This document shows positions 44,006 through 52,987 of a DNA stretch of 64,000 nucleotides, piece by piece. Positions within the stretch are counted from its first letter, which is position 1. Every line of letters starts with the position of its first letter. The translations under genes were made by a program, and so were the position numbers. The notes under the pieces were generated by a model. The model saw nothing but the letters and a program-made list of their open reading frames with translations, searched no databases and was not told the origin of the DNA. The stretch spans positions 2,108,001 through 2,172,000 of the forward strand of contig NZ_CP065957.1 of assembly GCF_017310505.1 (NCBI RefSeq), given 5' to 3'. This DNA comes from Methylacidiphilum caldifontis (lineage in GTDB: Bacteria; Verrucomicrobiota; Verrucomicrobiia; Methylacidiphilales; Methylacidiphilaceae).

Positions 44006-44833
44006 ATGGCACAAACGACAACTGCTACGACTATTGCTATTCCCGAGAGGTCTCTTTTCTCGTGGAATAGGATGTGGTTGGGCGTGGGTCTACTGAGTGG
44101 TTGGTATATACTGGTCAATTTATATGAAAGAGCTTTTGCTTTTACAAAAGGACTGGATTATACCTCCGCTGAGTATCAGACCTATTGGATGAACTTGCTT
44201 TTGGCAGAGTTGGCATTGGAAGCTTTGGCTTTCATTGCTGTTTGTACTTGGCTCTGGATAACTCGGGATAAGAATCTGGAAAATATTTCCCCTGTTGAAG
44301 AACTCAGAAGATATTGGAACCTGGGATTGTTCATAGTGGTTTATACTGTGGCAATCTATTGGGGAGCCAGTTACTTTACTGAGCAAGACGGGACGTGGCA
44401 TCAAACTGTTATTCGAGATACTGACTTTACTCCAAGTCATATTATCGAGTTTTATCAGAGCTATCCCATATATATAATCCTTGGGGTAGGTTCTTTCATG
44501 TATGCCATTACCCGCCTTCCCATGTTTGCTAGAGCCTTTTCTATCCCCTATGCGGTACTTGTCGGATCTCCCTTGATGATCTTTCCCAATGTAGGGCTCA
44601 ACGAGTTCGGCCATACCCGGTGGTTCATGGAAGAGCTCTTTGTGGCTCCTTTGCACTGGGGATTTGTAGCCTTTGGGTGGGGAGCCTTGGCCATTATGGG
44701 AGTTTGGCTCCAGGCCTGTCCAAGGGTGTATGAGCTCATGAAGCAAGTCTATTATGGAAAGACTGCGGCATCACCGACAAAAGTTATGGATGAGCCTGAA
44801 AAAGCGGCTGATCCAATCTATTGTGAAGTGTAA
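44006..44833 (+). CDS. pmoC: Particulate methane monooxygenase subunit C (copy 1)
   Basis: PmoC is the membrane subunit of particulate methane monooxygenase, which oxidises methane to methanol. The 275-aa protein has about six membrane helices. Ligands of the CuC site are kept (D-x3-H-x12-H as EQDGTWHQTVIRDTDFTPSH), as are those of the CuD site (N-x3-H-x13-H as LNEFGHTRWF followed by APLHWG). It starts the first pmoCAB operon. It is more divergent in sequence from the two other PmoC copies than those are from each other, especially in the first 80 residues and in transmembrane segments. Confidence 0.96.
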   Translation: MAQTTTATTIAIPERSLFSWNRMWLGVGLLSGWYILVNLYERAFAFTKGLDYTSAEYQTYWMNLLLAELALEALAFIAVCTWLWITRDKNLENISPVEELRRYWNLGLFIVVYTVAIYWGASYFTEQDGTWHQTVIRDTDFTPSHIIEFYQSYPIYIILGVGSFMYAITRLPMFARAFSIPYAVLVGSPLMIFPNVGLNEFGHTRWFMEELFVAPLHWGFVAFGWGALAIMGVWLQACPRVYELMKQVYYGKTAASPTKVMDEPEKAADPIYCEV

Positions 44834-44867
44834 GGGAATCGGGAAAGAAAAAAATCAACTATTATAA

Positions 44868-44892
44868 GGGGCGGGAAATTAAGGCCCGCCCC
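44868..44892 (+). promoter_or_regulatory. Intercistronic stem-loop between pmoC1 and pmoA1
   Basis: GGGGCGGG (44868-44875) and CCCGCCCC (44885-44892) form a perfect GC-rich 8-bp stem in the 76-bp gap. No T-run follows, so it is more likely an mRNA processing or stability element than a terminator. The same kind of hairpin follows the other two pmoC genes. Confidence 0.7.
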
Positions 44893-44909
44893 AATACAAT
44901 GGAGGAAAA

Positions 44910-45647
44910 ATGCAACTTTCACAAGCGGATGTGGAAATAAAAAACCTTGAGAGAAAGTTTGATATTGTGGTCATCGTTTCGATGTTTTTTGCTTTTATTG
45001 GTGGATATCATATTCATCAGATGCTTCTGGCTGGGGATTGGTCATTTTGGATCGACTGGAAAGATAGGATGTGGTGGCCTGTGGTTGCGCCAATCGCCGA
45101 TATCGCTTTTCCAGCGGCCATTCAATCGATCTTATGGACGAAATTTAAAATGCCAATCGGAGCGACCTTTTCAACGGTGGGGCTCTTCTTTGGCCAGTGG
45201 ATGAACCGGTATTGGAATTTCTGGGGTTGGGGAACCTATCCTTTAAACTTCGTTTTTCCAGAAACCTTAATCCCCCAGGCTGTCGTACTGGATGGAGTTT
45301 TAATGATTTCAAATAATTTTGTCATCACTGCCCTTGTGGGGGGAGAACTTTGGGGCTGGCTCTTTTATCCAGCGAATTGGCCTATGATCGCTCCTTACCA
45401 TGTGCCTGTTGAGTATTATGGCCAATTGATGAGTATGGCTGATCTTATTCAATACGAGTATATCCGGACCTCCACCCCTGAATACATCCGTATGGTGGAG
45501 ACGGGAACGATGAGGAGCTTTGCAGGTGGCGTGTTGGGTGTATCGGCATTCTTCTCGGGATTTGTTTCAGCCTGTATGTACTTTTTATGGTGGTTTTTTG
45601 GGAAGTTTTTTGGGTCAACAAAGTTTGTCAAACACTCGTCGGTTTAG
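44910..45647 (+). CDS. pmoA: Particulate methane monooxygenase subunit A (copy 1)
   Basis: PmoA is the second integral membrane subunit. The 245-aa protein has seven or so helices and family-typical segments: GDWSFWIDWKDRMWWP near the N-terminus, FGQWMNRYWNFWGW, NWPMIAPYHVPVEYYGQLMSMADLIQYEYIRTSTPEYIRMVE, and GTMRSFAGGVLGVSAFFSGF. It is the standard marker gene for methanotrophs. The sequence is of the verrucomicrobial type. It lies 76 bp after pmoC1, with a stem-loop in the gap, and pmoB1 begins 29 bp downstream. Confidence 0.96.
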   Translation: MQLSQADVEIKNLERKFDIVVIVSMFFAFIGGYHIHQMLLAGDWSFWIDWKDRMWWPVVAPIADIAFPAAIQSILWTKFKMPIGATFSTVGLFFGQWMNRYWNFWGWGTYPLNFVFPETLIPQAVVLDGVLMISNNFVITALVGGELWGWLFYPANWPMIAPYHVPVEYYGQLMSMADLIQYEYIRTSTPEYIRMVETGTMRSFAGGVLGVSAFFSGFVSACMYFLWWFFGKFFGSTKFVKHSSV

Positions 45648-45676
45648 GGGAATAAAAATCAAATGGAGGATAAAAG

Positions 45677-46963
45677 ATGAATAATGTGACAAGTCATTGG
45701 GAAAAAAAGATAAAAAAAATACTTTATGGTTTAGCGGCAGTTATAATAGGTAGTAGCTTTTCTTCAGTCAGCTTTGCTGTACAGGGGATGGGTGCTAAAT
45801 CACAGGAGGCCTTTTTAAGGATGCGGACGGTTGTTTTCTATGATACCCAATTTTCCTTTGCCCCAGCAAATAGGGTAAAAGTGGGTGATGAGTTTAGCTG
45901 TACAGGAAAAGTGATGCTTATGCCGACATGGCCGCAAGAAATTCCTTTTTCAGGGATTTCTTTTTTTAATTTTTTCGTTCCTGGACCTCAGGTCTTAAGG
46001 AAAGCCATTTGGGTAAACGAAAAATATTTTCAGTTTAACTCAGTGGTTTTGGAGAAGGGGGGAACTTACGCTTACAAGATGGTGTTGCAAGCCAGAAACC
46101 CTGGAACCTATCCGATGGGGCCAATGTTGAGTATGGAGGAAGCTGGGCCGTTTATTGGGCCAGAGGAGTTCCTCACCATTGAGGGGACAAGGGGGGGCTT
46201 TACAAACCCTGTGAAGACCTTGTTGGGAAATACGGTGGATCTGGAAAATTATGGTACGGCACGGATGATTACCTGGACACTATTAACGACTGTTGTCGGA
46301 ATAGTCTGGTTAGTCTATTGGCTGTCTAAGCCTTTTACCCGGAGATTAGGTCTTGTAGCAGCAGGCAGGAAAGATGAACTGTTTAATCCTATGGATAGAC
46401 AAGTTTGTTTCCTTTTTACTGTGGGGACGATTGTCCTTGTGGCTGCTGCAGCAATGATTACCAAAGCACAATACCCGGTGACTATCCCTATTCAGGAGAC
46501 CAAGTATTATATTAAACCTCTTCCTCCGGAACCCACATTGATCCAGGCGGAAGTTACGGATGCGACGTATGATGTTCCAGGAAGGACGTTATCTTTTCAT
46601 ATCCAAATTAAAAATGTCGGGGATAAACCGGTCGTGTTGAAAGAATTTCTTACAGCGAACGTGCGGTTTTTAAATCCTGATATTCCTGGAAACAACTGGA
46701 ATCCTTCGTTCCCTGAAGTCAATGGTGGGCCTATGAAAGTGAGTCCTTCGGAACCGATTAATCCTGGGGAAACAAAAACGGTTGAAGTTTCGATGCAAAG
46801 TGCCGAATGGGAAAACCAGAGGCTGACCATGTATCATGAAACAACCAATCGGTTTGGTGGGCTGCTCTTTTTTACTGACCCGAGTGGAACAAGACAGATT
46901 TATGCAATTGCTGACCAGATTGTAATTCCGAAATTTGGAGGTACTGTAGGGGGTGGAATGTAA
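45677..46963 (+). CDS. pmoB: Particulate methane monooxygenase subunit B (copy 1)
   Basis: PmoB has two soluble cupredoxin-like domains linked by two helices (TLLTTVVGIVWLVYWLSKPF and VCFLFTVGTIVLVAAAAMITK). The 428-aa protein has a signal peptide ending about SSVSFA|VQGMGAKSQ. In proteobacterial PmoB the mature N-terminal His and an H-x-H pair (GTWHVHTM) bind copper; here the equivalent residues are Val/Gln at 35-36 and Pro146/Gly148 (GTYPMGPM). This lack of CuB ligands is known for verrucomicrobial enzymes. Four of five short family blocks (e.g. MPTWPQEIPFSGISFFNFF) are conserved. It closes operon 1, followed by a terminator. Confidence 0.96.
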   Translation: MNNVTSHWEKKIKKILYGLAAVIIGSSFSSVSFAVQGMGAKSQEAFLRMRTVVFYDTQFSFAPANRVKVGDEFSCTGKVMLMPTWPQEIPFSGISFFNFFVPGPQVLRKAIWVNEKYFQFNSVVLEKGGTYAYKMVLQARNPGTYPMGPMLSMEEAGPFIGPEEFLTIEGTRGGFTNPVKTLLGNTVDLENYGTARMITWTLLTTVVGIVWLVYWLSKPFTRRLGLVAAGRKDELFNPMDRQVCFLFTVGTIVLVAAAAMITKAQYPVTIPIQETKYYIKPLPPEPTLIQAEVTDATYDVPGRTLSFHIQIKNVGDKPVVLKEFLTANVRFLNPDIPGNNWNPSFPEVNGGPMKVSPSEPINPGETKTVEVSMQSAEWENQRLTMYHETTNRFGGLLFFTDPSGTRQIYAIADQIVIPKFGGTVGGGM

Positions 46964-47486: not shown

Positions 47487-48317
47487 ATGGCACAAGCGAC
47501 AACGCAAACGGTATCGATATCGATTCCGGATAGGTCAGCCTTCTCTTGGAAAAACCTCTGGATCGCTCTGGCGATTATAACGGTCTTTGAGTTAGCCGTT
47601 AATGTCTATGAGCGGACCTTTGCTATAGCCAAGGGATTGGACTACTTTACTCCGGAATATCAGACCTATTGGATGAGCATCCTTTATACCGAGCTGATTC
47701 TCGAGCCGACTACGCTCATCGCGCTTTGCTCCTGGTTATGGGTGACCAGGGATCGTGCGATGGAAAATCTTGCTCCTGCTGAGGAGTTAAGGCGGTATTG
47801 GAACCTGGGGTTATTTGTGGTGGTTTATACCGTACTGCTTTACTGGGGAGCAAGCTACTATACGGAGCAGGACGGCACGTGGCATCAGACGGTGATAAGG
47901 GATACAGACTTCACACCGAGCCACATCATTGAGTTCTATCAAAGCTATCCGATCTATATTATAGCTGGGGTTGGATCAATGGTGTATGCCATGACCAGGT
48001 TGCCTCAATATGCGAAGGCTTTCTCAGTGCCCTATGCGGTGCTGGTAGGCTCTCCGTTGATGATCTTCCCCAACGTGGGATTGAACGAATTTGGACATAC
48101 CCGTTGGTTCATGGAAGAGCTGTTTGTGGCACCCTTGCACTGGGGATTCGTCATGTTTGGCTGGGGAGCTTTGGCAATCTTGGGAACTTGGTTGCAGATT
48201 TGCCCAAGAGTAGTAGAACTGATCAAACAGGTCTACTATGGCAAGCCAGCTACCTCTCCTGCGGTTGTGTTGAACGACCCTGAGAAAGCTGCGGATCCAG
48301 CTCTTTGTGAAATCTGA
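47487..48317 (+). CDS. pmoC: Particulate methane monooxygenase subunit C (copy 2)
   Basis: This 276-aa PmoC starts the second operon. Copper ligands by position are D129, H133 and H146 (CuC), and N200, H204 and H218 (CuD), with the same spacing as in the Methylococcus enzyme. It is nearly identical to copy 3 (about 12 differing residues, half of them in the last 15 residues), including the DNA from 14 bp before the start codon. It is clearly more distant from copy 1. A GC-rich stem-loop follows before pmoA2. Confidence 0.96.
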   Translation: MAQATTQTVSISIPDRSAFSWKNLWIALAIITVFELAVNVYERTFAIAKGLDYFTPEYQTYWMSILYTELILEPTTLIALCSWLWVTRDRAMENLAPAEELRRYWNLGLFVVVYTVLLYWGASYYTEQDGTWHQTVIRDTDFTPSHIIEFYQSYPIYIIAGVGSMVYAMTRLPQYAKAFSVPYAVLVGSPLMIFPNVGLNEFGHTRWFMEELFVAPLHWGFVMFGWGALAILGTWLQICPRVVELIKQVYYGKPATSPAVVLNDPEKAADPALCEI

Positions 48318-48337
48318 TATTAATTAAAAGGATTCGA

Positions 48338-48370
48338 ATGAAGTGGCGGGTAAAACGCCCGCCGCTTCAT
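48338..48370 (+). promoter_or_regulatory. Intercistronic stem-loop between pmoC2 and pmoA2
   Basis: ATGAAGTGGCGGG (48338-48350) and CCCGCCGCTTCAT (48358-48370) pair over 13 bp with one G-T wobble and a 7-base loop. No T-run follows. Position and GC-rich core match the hairpin after pmoC1. Confidence 0.75.
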
Positions 48371-48386
48371 AGAAAAGGAGGAAAAA

Positions 48387-49124
48387 ATGCAACAAGTAGC
48401 TGCAGAAGCCGAAGCAAGATCACTCGAAAGGAAGTTCGACATTGTCGTACTCGTTTCGATGTTTTTGGCAATCCTCTCCGGCTTTCATATTCACCAGATG
48501 CTGACAGCGGGTGACTGGTCTTTCTGGATAGACTGGAAAGACAGGATGTGGTGGCCAGTGGTAGCACCCATTATGGATATAACTTTTCCGGCAGCATGTC
48601 AGGCAATCCTATGGACAAAATTTAAAGCACCCATAGGAGCTACATTTAGCTGTGCGGGATTGTTTTTTGGTCAGTGGATGAATCGGTATTGGAATTTCTG
48701 GGGGTGGACTCACTATCCTCTGAATTTCGTATTTCCTGAAACTCTTCTTCCGCAGGCGATTGTTCTAGATGGTGTGTTAATGATCACCAATAACTTCGTT
48801 GTAACCGCCCTGATTGGAGGAGAGCTTTGGGGATGGCTTTTCTATCCTTCAAATTGGCCCATGATTGCTCCATACCACGTTCCCGTGGAGTACTATGGAC
48901 AGCTCATGAGCGTAGCAGACCTTATCCAATATGAGTATATCCGAACTTCCACTCCTGAGTATATCCGCATGGTTGAGACAGGAACAATGAGAAGCTTTGC
49001 TGGGGGTGTTCTTGGAGTATCAGCATTCTTCTCGGGATTCTGTTCTGTAATCATGTACTTCATCTGGTGGTACTTCGGATACTTCTTCGGATGGACGAAG
49101 TTTGTAAAACATTCGAAGGTGTAA
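48387..49124 (+). CDS. pmoA: Particulate methane monooxygenase subunit A (copy 2)
   Basis: The 245-aa second PmoA copy shares almost all blocks with copy 1 (MLTAGDWSFWIDWKDRMWW, NWPMIAPYHVPVEYYGQLMS, EYIRTSTPEYIRMVETGTMR) and differs mainly in the N-terminus and in transmembrane segments (for example AAEAEARSLERKFDIVVLVSMFL). Two copies in tandem allow dose or condition-specific expression. It is 69 bp after pmoC2 and 60 bp before pmoB2. Confidence 0.96.
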   Translation: MQQVAAEAEARSLERKFDIVVLVSMFLAILSGFHIHQMLTAGDWSFWIDWKDRMWWPVVAPIMDITFPAACQAILWTKFKAPIGATFSCAGLFFGQWMNRYWNFWGWTHYPLNFVFPETLLPQAIVLDGVLMITNNFVVTALIGGELWGWLFYPSNWPMIAPYHVPVEYYGQLMSVADLIQYEYIRTSTPEYIRMVETGTMRSFAGGVLGVSAFFSGFCSVIMYFIWWYFGYFFGWTKFVKHSKV

Positions 49125-49136
49125 AAATTAAAGGTG

Positions 49137-49164
49137 GAGGGGAAGATTTGATACTCTTCCCCTC
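49137..49164 (+). promoter_or_regulatory. Intercistronic stem-loop between pmoA2 and pmoB2
   Basis: GAGGGGAAGA (49137-49146) and TCTTCCCCTC (49155-49164) form a perfect 10-bp stem with an 8-base loop. There is no T-run. Copy 1 has no counterpart here: the pmoA1-pmoB1 gap is just 29 bp. Confidence 0.7.
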
Positions 49165-49184
49165 AAACAAAAGGAGATATTGAA

Positions 49185-50474
49185 GTGAAAAAGTTAAACT
49201 TCGAAACTGGGATGAAAAAGCTAGTCAGAGTAGGAGCTGCCTTTTTACTCACTGGGCTGATGATCACTCCTTTATCCTCACTTTTTGCTGTGCAAGGAAT
49301 GGGGGCTAAATCTCAAGAAGCCTTCTTGAGAATGCGTACCGTAACCTTTTTCGATACCCGTTTTTCATTTACTCCGTCTAATAGAGTGAAAGTCGGGGAT
49401 GAATTCACATGCACAGGAAAAGTGATGCTGATGCCAACATGGCCGCAGGAAATTCCTTTTTCAGGAATATCCTTCTTTAACTTCTTCGTTCCCGGGCCTC
49501 AAGTACTTCGAAAGGCGATATTTGTGAACGAGAAGTACTTCCAGTTCAACTCGGTGGTCCTGGAAAAAGGAGGGGTGTACGAATATAAAATGATTAATCA
49601 AGCTCGTACACCGGGAATATGGCCAGTTGGTCCCATGGTGAGCATGGAGGAAGCGGGGCCTTTCATCGGACCTGAAGAATACTTAACGATCGAAGGATCC
49701 AATGCAGGATTTACCAATCCTGTAAAGACCTTGTTAGGCAATACGATCGATCTTGAAAATTACGGTGAAGCCCGCATGATCATGTGGACGCTCCTAACAT
49801 CGGCTATTGCTGTAGCATGGCTCATATATTGGTGCTCCAAGCCCTTTACAAGAAGACTAGGGCTTGTGGCAGCGGGTAGAAAAGAAGATCTGTTTAGCCC
49901 AATGGATAGACAGGTATGTTTTCTTTTTACCATTGGTACGATAGTCCTTGTAGCTGCTGCGGCAATGATAACTAAGGCTCAGTATCCTATAACCATTCCG
50001 ATTCAGGAAACTAAGTATTATATCAAACCTTTGCCTCCTGAACCGGCCCTTATTCAAGCCGAAGTTACCGATGCTACCTATGACGTTCCCGGAAGAACCC
50101 TGTCATTCCATATCCAAGTCAAGAATGTTGGGGATAAACCTGTCGTTTTGAAAGAGTTTTTGACTGCAAACGTCAGGTTCTTAAACCCTGATGTTCCTGG
50201 AAATACATGGAATGAAAACTACCCTGAAGTCAACGGGGGTCCTATGAAAGTTACGCCCTCTGAACCCATTAATCCAGGTGAGACTAAAACACTTGAAGTT
50301 TCCATGCAGAGTGCAGAATGGGAAAATCAAAGACTCACGATGTATCATGAGTCGACGAACCGGTTTGGAGGACTTCTCTTCTTTTCGGATACTTCCGGAA
50401 CTCGTCAGGTCTTTGCAATTGCTGACCAGATTGTCATTCCGAAATTCGGTGGGGCAATTGGTGGAGGAATGTAA
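49185..50474 (+). CDS. pmoB: Particulate methane monooxygenase subunit B (copy 2)
   Basis: The 429-aa second PmoB has a signal peptide ending near SLFA|VQGMGAKSQ, two cupredoxin domains and two helices. Like copy 1 it lacks the copper-binding His residues (VQ at the mature N-terminus, GIWPVGPM in place of GTWHVHTM). The C-terminal cupredoxin part is close to copy 1 (EVTDATYDVPGRTLSFHIQ; EPINPGETKT; MQSAEWENQRLTMYHE). The GTG at 49185 is the start, with AAGGAGATATTGAA before it. A terminator follows. Confidence 0.96.
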   Translation: MKKLNFETGMKKLVRVGAAFLLTGLMITPLSSLFAVQGMGAKSQEAFLRMRTVTFFDTRFSFTPSNRVKVGDEFTCTGKVMLMPTWPQEIPFSGISFFNFFVPGPQVLRKAIFVNEKYFQFNSVVLEKGGVYEYKMINQARTPGIWPVGPMVSMEEAGPFIGPEEYLTIEGSNAGFTNPVKTLLGNTIDLENYGEARMIMWTLLTSAIAVAWLIYWCSKPFTRRLGLVAAGRKEDLFSPMDRQVCFLFTIGTIVLVAAAAMITKAQYPITIPIQETKYYIKPLPPEPALIQAEVTDATYDVPGRTLSFHIQVKNVGDKPVVLKEFLTANVRFLNPDVPGNTWNENYPEVNGGPMKVTPSEPINPGETKTLEVSMQSAEWENQRLTMYHESTNRFGGLLFFSDTSGTRQVFAIADQIVIPKFGGAIGGGM

Positions 50475-50501: not shown

Positions 50502-50537
50502 AAAAAGCCCATCTTTTAAAAGAAGGTGGGCTTTTTT
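50502..50537 (+). terminator. Rho-independent terminator after pmoB2
   Basis: AAAAAGCCCATCTT and AAGGTGGGCTTTTT pair over about 14 bp with one G-T wobble around a short loop, followed by T residues. It ends the second pmoCAB operon. Confidence 0.88.
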
Positions 50538-51383
50538 ATTGCCTTATGTAAAAAGAGTTGAGTAAGGGCTGCTTTTGAACAGGCTTTTATTTAGCTTTCA
50601 ACTTTTCAGTTTCTTTTTTTTCTATTTTTGAACTTCTAAATCTAAAAGAAAGAGAGAATATTTTTAGCCTAAGCGTTTAAACATAGCCAGAACAGTTTAA
50701 AGTGTTTGGCTTTTTGTATTGAAATTCATTAATGTAAATGCCCTTAAGTTAGGTTTTCTTTAAGACAATTTCATATAACAAAAGATGAGATAGTTAGGTT
50801 ATCCATGGGACAAAGCTTTTTTTAACAAACAATAAACAATTTCAGCATGGTCCTTGTTGGAGTCTTAGTTAGTTGTTTTTAACTTATAGGCCAATCAGTC
50901 CCAATAGAGCTACATTTTTCTCTACGTAGTCTTATTTCTTTTTGTTTTTAAATCTCGATAGGTTCAATGTCTTATATCCGCAAATGAGTTGATCGCCAGT
51001 TTGTGACATGAAAAGAAGATTAAATAGAATGTATTTTATGGGATAATTGGAAACCAATGTGTTGGTAAGGGAAAAGACATAACCTGTTATGTATTAAATG
51101 GAAAGAAAAAATATTTTATAAATTAATCGTTAAAATGATAACGAATAATAAGATATGCTTATATATATAATAATTAATATATTTTATAGATTATAAATTG
51201 TTAATTTTCCAGATTGAATATCATTATTTATAAAAAGTTTATCATTATCTTTAATATCCCTACTATTGCACAGATATATGCCTAATTTTAAATACTCCAA
51301 AAGATTATTTGAAACCTTAAAAAGGATTAATTGATTTATTGTAGTCTCCAAAAGAACAAGGAGACAGAAAAGGAGGTTGATAA
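50538..51383 (+). promoter_or_regulatory. Long upstream region of solo pmoC3
   Basis: About 850 bp separate the terminator after pmoB2 from pmoC3. No gene is supported; the only longer frames are minus-strand and lack a ribosome binding site. The last 300 bp are extremely AT-rich (runs such as TATATATATAATAATTAATATA). The 13-mer shared by the two other pmo operons is not present. From about 14 bp before the start codon, sequence becomes identical to the region before pmoC2 (AAAAGGAGGTTGATAA). Regulation therefore probably differs from pmoCAB1 and pmoCAB2. Confidence 0.5.
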
Positions 51384-52214
51384 ATGGCACAAGCGACAAC
51401 GCAAACGGTATCGATATCGATTCCGGATAAGTCGGCCTTCTCTTGGAAAAACCTCTGGATCGCTCTGGCGATTATAACGGTCTTTGAGATAGCCGTTAAC
51501 GTCTATGAGCGGACCTTTGCTATAGCCAAGGGATTGGACTACTTTACTCCGGAATATCAGACCTATTGGATGAGCATCCTTTATACCGAGCTGATTCTCG
51601 AGCCGACTACGCTCATCGCGCTTTGCTCCTGGTTATGGGTGACCAGGGATCGTGCGATGGAAAATCTTGCTCCTGCTGAGGAGTTAAGGCGGTATTGGAA
51701 CCTGGGGTTATTTGTGGTGGTTTATACCGTACTGCTTTACTGGGGAGCAAGCTACTATACGGAGCAGGACGGCACGTGGCACCAGACGGTGATAAGGGAT
51801 ACAGACTTCACACCGAGCCACATCATTGAGTTCTATCAAAGCTATCCGATCTATATTATAGCTGGTGTAGGATCAATGGTGTATGCTATGACCAGGCTTC
51901 CAGCCTATGCAAGAGCTTTCTCAGTGCCCTATGCGGTGCTGGTAGGCTCTCCGTTGATGATCTTCCCCAACGTGGGATTGAACGAATTTGGACATACCCG
52001 TTGGTTCATGGAAGAGCTGTTTGTGGCACCCTTGCACTGGGGATTCGTCATGTTTGGCTGGGGAGCTTTGGCAATCCTGGGAACGTGGCTGCAAGCTTGC
52101 CCAAGAGTATTAGAACTGATCAAGCAGGTCTACTATGGCAAGCCGGCTACCTCTCCTGCGGTTGTGTTGAATGAGCCAGAAAAAGTAACAAAAATGGAAT
52201 TGTGCGAAATATAA
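51384..52214 (+). CDS. pmoC: Solo particulate methane monooxygenase subunit C (copy 3)
   Basis: This 276-aa PmoC has no pmoA or pmoB next to it. All CuC and CuD ligands (D129, H133, H146; N200, H204, H218) are retained. It differs from copy 2 by about 12 residues: six scattered substitutions, D to E, and a replaced C-terminal tail (EKVTKMELCEI instead of EKAADPALCEI). The DNA is nearly identical over long blocks, which suggests gene conversion rather than old duplication. Orphan pmoC genes also occur in other methanotrophs and may adjust complex assembly. The next gene is a candidate copper protein. Confidence 0.95.
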   Translation: MAQATTQTVSISIPDKSAFSWKNLWIALAIITVFEIAVNVYERTFAIAKGLDYFTPEYQTYWMSILYTELILEPTTLIALCSWLWVTRDRAMENLAPAEELRRYWNLGLFVVVYTVLLYWGASYYTEQDGTWHQTVIRDTDFTPSHIIEFYQSYPIYIIAGVGSMVYAMTRLPAYARAFSVPYAVLVGSPLMIFPNVGLNEFGHTRWFMEELFVAPLHWGFVMFGWGALAILGTWLQACPRVLELIKQVYYGKPATSPAVVLNEPEKVTKMELCEI

Positions 52215-52228
52215 GTTGAAAAAAAAGG

Positions 52229-52263
52229 GCGGGAAGCTTATTATTTTTGCCAGGGCTTCCCGC
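52229..52263 (+). promoter_or_regulatory. Intercistronic stem-loop after pmoC3
   Basis: GCGGGAAGC (52229-52237) and GCTTCCCGC (52255-52263) form a perfect 9-bp stem with a 17-base loop. No T-run follows. It parallels the hairpins after pmoC1 and pmoC2, although here the following gene is not pmoA. Confidence 0.65.
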
Positions 52264-52297
52264 TCCACCTAAAAAAAGAAATTTTAGGAGTATTAAA

Positions 52298-52987
52298 ATG
52301 AAAAGCTCTCCAAAAAGCAATCATAAAAAGAGATCCACTTTAATCGTTTTATTTCTTACGCTATTTTCTTTCTTTTTAATCATTCCTTCAGGATTTGCTC
52401 ATGGTAGGCTTGTTCCTCCAAAGCCTTTATGCCCTATTCAGAAGAAAGGGGATTTTGCTATTCATATGGATGTTTTTCCCCATTCAAAACTTTCCGATCT
52501 TGAAAAATGTGGGACGGTTTACTGCCATGAAGTGCCTGTTGTTGGGGATATGACTCTGGTTTTTGACTTATTTAGTGTTCAAAATGTTCTCAATCATACT
52601 CCAGTCCGTATCGAGATCTATGAGGAGCCTTTGCATCGTATTACCACCTCTATCCCTCCAACAGTCTATGCAAATGGGATTGCTAAAATTCCTGTAACCT
52701 TTAGCCATCCTGGTCGTTATAAAATTATCGTTCATGTTCCGAAATCCGCCTCCGAAGAGCTTCTTAATAAGGTCGAGTCTATTACACAGGAACAGTTAGC
52801 ACAGGATATAGATTTTGTTTTTCCTCTTGCAATTGGAATGCAAAAATATACCCTGGGTTGGGTAGCATCATGGGGAATGGGTTTGTTGCTTCTTACCTTT
52901 ATTGTTGGCTTCCTTCTTTATGACGAACGTTCATTCTTAGTCAAATGGAGAATGAAAAAGATGGCAGAAGATGAAGAAGCCGAATAA
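52298..52987 (+). CDS. Exported C-terminally anchored protein with possible N-terminal His copper site
   Basis: The 229-aa product has a signal segment (about residues 14-34) ending PSGFA, so cleavage after A34 would leave H35 at the mature N-terminus (HGRLVPP). A C45, H56, M57, H62, C71, C76, H77 and M85 follow, then a beta-rich domain (FDLFSVQNVLNHTPVRIEIYE; FSHPGRYKIIVHVPKS) and one C-terminal helix (about 187-207). The layout recalls small copper chaperones with N-terminal His (CopC-like), FixH/YtkA-type domains, or PmoD. None of these matches well. ATG at 52298 is preferred because an AGGAG ribosome binding site lies 8 bp upstream. It probably forms a unit with pmoC3. Confidence 0.6.
   Translation: MKSSPKSNHKKRSTLIVLFLTLFSFFLIIPSGFAHGRLVPPKPLCPIQKKGDFAIHMDVFPHSKLSDLEKCGTVYCHEVPVVGDMTLVFDLFSVQNVLNHTPVRIEIYEEPLHRITTSIPPTVYANGIAKIPVTFSHPGRYKIIVHVPKSASEELLNKVESITQEQLAQDIDFVFPLAIGMQKYTLGWVASWGMGLLLLTFIVGFLLYDERSFLVKWRMKKMAEDEEAE

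Follow-up and report, generated by a model that had tools for sequence, protein, structure and literature searches.

The orphan pmoC5–pmoD5 pair of a Methylacidiphilum-type genome and a histidine at the predicted mature N-terminus of PmoD proteins

The locus and its hairpins

The window, by which is meant the whole 64,000-nt stretch of DNA analysed, comes from a Methylacidiphilum-type genome of 2,254,698 bp, and the features of it considered here are on the forward strand. Two pmoCAB operons are present (44006–46963 and 47487–50474). What follows the second is, in order, a terminator-like hairpin, a 909-bp gap, a solo pmoC, an 85-bp spacer with its own hairpin, a gene for a 229-aa protein and zwf. 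The terminator-like hairpin, at 50507–50538, is 3′ of pmoB2 and upstream of the solo pmoC; it was recognised from its sequence, which includes a T-run, and its folding, having been missed by a pattern scan whose rules it does not fit.

The solo pmoC (51384–52214) encodes 276 aa, matches the Pfam AmoC family with an E value of 1.8e-98 and, as the original prediction had it, retains all the copper ligands, the CuC motif DxxxH(x12)H being formed by D129, H133 and H146. Its orthologues in relatives with a complete copy are 96–99% identical (in one draft relative the gene is cut by a contig end). It is nearly a copy of pmoC2. A promoter shared by these two genes was sought and none was found, the upstream similarity being confined to the tail of pmoB and the start of pmoC. 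Though the gene was at first called pmoC3 and the pair put forward as an undescribed system, neither description holds because Kruse et al. 2019 (PMC6688271) reported the same pair as pmoC5–pmoD5; the pmoC3 of the literature is a divergent copy in the pmoCAB3 operon, elsewhere in the genome. In that paper the orphan pmoC5 of Kam1 is followed immediately by a pmoD homologue, pmoD5, which has homologues in SolV and V4. Four homologues of pmoD are counted in each genome, of which two belong to pmo clusters, one lies by a multicopper oxidase and one near a CRISPR region. The present genome has four. The pmoC5–pmoD5 order is conserved in relatives, and neither gene is disrupted in the Methylacidiphilum relatives examined.

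The stem-loop that had been noticed between the two genes is real. It is a G+C-rich hairpin of 13 pairs at 52227–52265, and it folds in 5 of 5 Methylacidiphilum genomes. In their alignment 100% of cells are paired and one pair shows a compensatory change (G-C to A-U); as the five sequences are related, this is weak statistical evidence for conservation. It is not a terminator, since no U-tract follows it and the same type of hairpin separates pmoC from pmoA in the other two operons. G+C-rich hairpins without a U-tract are found after all three pmoC genes of the window (44834–44909, 48318–48386 and 52227–52265), before either pmoA or pmoD, and they are possibly an mRNA-stabilising or processing element. 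Beyond the hairpin of the spacer there is a ribosome-binding site, AGGAG (52286–52290), 7 nt upstream of the ATG of pmoD5 at 52298.

Identity and architecture of PmoD5

The 229-aa protein (52298–52987) could not originally be placed in a known family. It is a member of the PmoD family, and this assignment, which sequence profile, predicted fold and the published locus of sister strains all support, is secure. PmoD had in fact been named as the type of small accessory protein encoded near pmo genes; what was not seen is that this protein is itself one. Scans of PmoD5 and members of its family against Pfam and NCBIfam named no usable family, PmoD being absent from both libraries. An hmmscan of PmoD5 at E values up to 10 gave one spurious family, with CopC, PCuAC, DUF1775, DUF4198 and DUF6702 not matched. 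A single-sequence phmmer search of PDB had the solved PmoD structure, 6cpd, as its top match, a weak one (E 0.18, with YCHEVPVVGDM aligned on YCDEIPATGRT). With a profile built from ten verrucomicrobial homologues and no proteobacterial sequence, 6cpd was matched at 5.3e-13 and the next entry at 0.23, and the same type of profile matches in-operon PmoDs of Methylocystis with E values to 1.9e-18. The structure prediction that the original prediction had proposed gave the same answer. The AlphaFold2 (AF2) model has a mean pLDDT of 78.9 and its best Foldseek match is 6cpd, at 8.6e-9; in VIA-align 2 the two superpose with a Z score of 14.2 and 2.4 Å rmsd over 113 residues, the next best structure scoring 9.8.

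A Sec signal peptide is predicted for aa 1–34 (52298–52399), ending ...SGFA|H. It was assigned by inspection of its n-, h- and c-regions and by conservation: 24% of positions 1–33 are invariant in five PmoD5 orthologues, as against 82% of positions 35–85, and the jump at A34|H35 supports the cleavage boundary first proposed. His35 (52400–52402) is thereby the predicted mature N-terminal residue and a candidate copper ligand. From it to aa 180 (52400–52837) alignment, the AF2 model and the fold match delimit a cupredoxin-like domain, predicted to be periplasmic, and from about aa 186 to 210 (52853–52927) there is a predicted C-terminal transmembrane helix, which begins at residue 186 in the AF2 model, is hydrophobic in sequence and agrees with the single helix noted before. 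The residues listed at the outset (H35, C45, H56, M57, H62, C71, C76, H77 and M85) are all where they were said to be. The outline given then, of an exported, membrane-anchored relative of copper proteins, paired with a solo pmoC and with His predicted at its mature N-terminus, is supported. In the AF2 model of the mature protein, which is without metal, residues 35–40 have pLDDT values below 50 and the N-terminal segment is not placed.

PmoD5 is 75–86% identical to its orthologues in the relatives searched, and in the published work the proteins of M. kamchatkense Kam1, M. infernorum V4 and M. fumariolicum SolV are products of the same gene at the same locus, with the same signal peptide and C-terminal helix. 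With the PmoD of Methylocystis sp. Rockwell (6cpd, PMC6189053) it shares a signal peptide, a cupredoxin-like domain with its fold, two conserved cysteines and a C-terminal helix. The two differ in their motifs. Rockwell PmoD uses C41, M49 and H51 of Cx7MxHxnC for its CuA centre, whereas PmoD5 has Cx10HM and an alanine in place of that methionine (Ala at this position in verrucomicrobial PmoDs was reported by Chau et al. 2022, PMC8764830). This substitution, and a spacing one residue longer, rule out a dimeric CuA centre of the described type in PmoD5. CuA is formed only by PmoDs with Cx7MxHxnC, other classes binding copper otherwise (Fisher et al. 2018, PMC6189053). The in-operon PmoDs close to that of Rockwell also lack a His after the signal peptide, in contrast to PmoD5. 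In 10 aligned verrucomicrobial homologues C45, H56 and C76 are invariant, but the N-terminal His is not. An extra Cys precedes the second conserved one in CGTVYC of PmoD5 (aa 71–76, 52508–52525 of the window) and in SCFINDYC of another sequence (L023:2843–3499).

The residue after the predicted signal peptide in the PmoD family

While the identity of PmoD5 is ordinary, having been published, the family-wide occurrence of an N-terminal His is worth following. The survey covered Verrucomicrobiota, methanotrophs of the alpha- and gammaproteobacteria, and NC10, and gave 159 PmoD homologues, in all of which both cysteines are invariant. At the aligned position that follows predicted removal of the signal peptide, 110 of the 159 have His, as do 43 of 72 and 19 of 35 after redundancy reduction at 60% and 40% identity respectively. 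The residue before it is A, G or S in 110 of 110, the residue at +2 is G or R in 107, and in 91 PmoDs it is exactly 10 residues before the first Cys. By a simple rule, a few of whose matches are doubtful but with which the alignment agrees in 156 of 159, it is present in 31/41 sequences with Cx10H, 44/53 with Cx9H, 24/29 with Cx8M, 6/8 with Cx8MH and 1/8 with Cx7MxH, so that 7 of the 8 PmoDs with the CuA motif are without it. For comparison, a crude cleavage rule applied to 142 other ORFs of the same loci puts His at +1 in 19, of which 17 begin like PmoB (HGE(K/R)SQ) or PCuAC (HEY...EHPW), both already known as copper proteins with an N-terminal His, leaving 2 of 125. Judged from these sequences, which are related to each other and were gathered with a search profile that took in the N-terminal region, the frequency of the N-terminal His in PmoD is well above chance. 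On a tree of PmoDs most of the deep branches carry this His, and about 13 changes are implied.

Two stricter formulations were rejected. That the N-terminal His and the CuA motif are mutually exclusive has no statistical support on the tree, the CuA proteins being essentially one clade plus one outlier and offering two independent contrasts; that the His goes with a second His is not supported, as the tree shows no co-variation between the two. Since many PmoDs, as in the Cx8M class, have an N-terminal His but no second one, a brace of two histidines cannot hold for the family at large. Neither is the N-terminal His needed by every pMMO-linked PmoD, for the pmoCAB3-linked paralogue of the same genome is without it.

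Of 388 Verrucomicrobiota genomes 6 have PmoD, all of them Methylacidiphilaceae, and pmoC is in 13 of 13 Methylacidiphilaceae genomes searched. Homologues apart from any pmo context, which the original prediction had regarded as telling against it, do exist by gene position, as one paralogue of this genome beside a multicopper oxidase and another away from pmo genes, but not by genome, the only Verrucomicrobiota with PmoD among the 388 being Methylacidiphilaceae. A paralogue with the N-terminus GHGGSDNGGMEC (L277:4458–6835) is directly before a gene that is a multicopper oxidase by position and published annotation. The expected pmoC–pmoD order is kept in Methylacidiphilum relatives, though homologues of PmoD5 are not limited to verrucomicrobial methanotrophs. 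Among the methanotrophs searched (including the L186 and L228/L232 region genomes, gamma- and alphaproteobacterial), a genome has between 1 and 11 copies of PmoD. In the nearest sister genus, Methylacidithermus (comparison with PMC8170126), pmoC, A, B and D are in one run, and in the present genome the divergent pmoCAB3 is followed by pmoD; the solo pmoC–pmoD is thus a variation on pmoCABD. In one genome of NC10 (Methylomirabilota) a PmoD with an N-terminal His (AHSGSG) is directly downstream of pmoC, the same pairing as in the window (L104:308–2080).

It had been proposed that PmoD5 compensates for the copper ligands lost from PmoB. PmoB1, PmoB2 and PmoB3 of this genome and PmoB of Methylacidimicrobium do lack the CuB ligands, and verrucomicrobial PmoBs in general are described as lacking copper ligands in PMC6688271. 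The compensation proposal was nevertheless rejected because PmoDs with an N-terminal His coexist with intact PmoB, in proteobacterial methanotrophs (several with an HGE(K/R)SQ PmoB) and in Methylacidithermus, where the CuB ligands are kept. A Methylacidithermus-like PmoB (G005, L275:4076–5365, reverse strand) retains A|HGERSQ at its N-terminus together with the motif HIH, in alignment with the proteobacterial CuB ligands. From its sequence, the general statement seems not to hold for Methylacidithermus.

A candidate copper site and its alternatives

Most likely PmoD5 is an accessory of pMMO that handles copper in the periplasm and has a mononuclear, brace-like site at its N-terminus. Made from a unit of its own together with an extra pmoC, it would be exported and its signal peptide removed before His35, with the cupredoxin-like domain then in the periplasm and the one C-terminal helix in the inner membrane. 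In this reading His35 would bind one copper through its amino group and its imidazole; His56 is a probable further ligand, with Met57, Cys45/Cys76 or an acidic residue as possible ones, and the copper may be passed on to PmoC or exchanged with it. We put the probability of the whole of this explanation at about 0.55. That PmoD matters for copper-dependent growth is known from M. trichosporium OB3b, in which such growth stops on knock-out of pmoD (PMC6189053).

By analogy, YcnI is a plausible working analogue. This DUF1775 protein with a monohistidine brace (PMC8424229) has an exported, cupredoxin-fold, copper-binding domain with an N-terminal His ligand, but PmoD5 has no Pfam match to any such family. 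The N-terminus of PmoD5 also resembles those of CopC, PCuAC/PmoF, LPMO and the CuB site of PmoB, where a His becomes N-terminal on cleavage and usually acts with a second His. By sequence, however, these are different families, and the second His of PmoD is within a Cys-His-Cys cluster.

It is less probable, yet enough so to be taken seriously, that the cluster of C45, H56, M57, C71 and C76 would be the metal site by itself, for instance for Cu(I) or as a redox disulfide, with the N-terminal His a conserved cleavage context or a structural residue. The invariance of C45, H56 and C76 in the aligned verrucomicrobial homologues, in which the N-terminal His varies, favours this, as does the restriction of the extra Cys of the C71 type to two pMMO-linked Methylacidiphilum PmoD paralogues (10 of the 159 sequences), and non-CuA PmoDs bind copper even with a blocked N-terminus (PMC6189053). 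Against it, few proteins other than the known N-terminal-His copper proteins have a His immediately following a cleavage site, and cleavage context would not readily account for a spacing from His to the first Cys that is fixed across phyla.

An improbable alternative would have PmoD5 as a substrate carrier or gate, or a structural clamp, of PmoC, as has been proposed for the PmoD of IT6 in acetone delivery: the pmoCAB3-linked PmoD of that strain raised acetol formation from acetone in Methylomonas sp. DH-1, and substrate transport was suggested (PMC8764830). However, the IT6 protein is another paralogue, about 21% identical to PmoD5 (its C31, H42, C63 and 205 aa fit the pmoCAB3-linked copy), and conservation of the candidate ligands, like copper binding by other PmoDs, also speaks against this role. 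Least probable is that a third pmoCABD operon has decayed and left the pair as a remnant of little function today. A D5-like gene directly after a complete pmoCAB in Methylacidithermus and the near-identity of pmoC5 with pmoC2 could be so read; against this stand two intact genes in the relatives examined, at identities of 96–99% for pmoC5 and 75–83% for pmoD5, and a spacer hairpin preserved through a compensatory change.

The PmoD constructs of the 2018 study all had a vector-derived Ser-Met at their N-terminus (PMC6189053). With such an extension the native amino group could not chelate copper, so that a site of the kind considered for PmoD5 would be hidden, and the crystallised protein, 6cpd, belongs to the class without an N-terminal His. 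No mention of PmoD in connection with the histidine brace was found in the openly accessible literature. The N-terminal His is not discussed in the accessible part of Kruse et al. 2019 (PMC6688271), nor is PmoD mentioned in the main text of a 2025 survey of N-terminal-His proteins. The presence of this residue in most PmoDs except the CuA-forming kind thus seems to be undescribed. At slightly worse than even odds, we tentatively suggest for the family that most non-CuA PmoDs may have an undescribed mononuclear copper site on the native N-terminal His, one that would be blocked in tag-derived constructs and replaced in CuA-type PmoDs, and with which PmoD would join PmoB and PCuAC/PmoF as a third copper protein of the pMMO system with an N-terminal His.

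So far a copper centre has been defined in one minority class only, Cx7MxHxnC, 23.6% of PmoDs (PMC6189053). If the N-terminal His does not bind copper, its conservation still needs another explanation. If it does, a role for PmoD as a Cu(II) chaperone of pMMO would become plausible, either in place of electron transfer or in addition to it.
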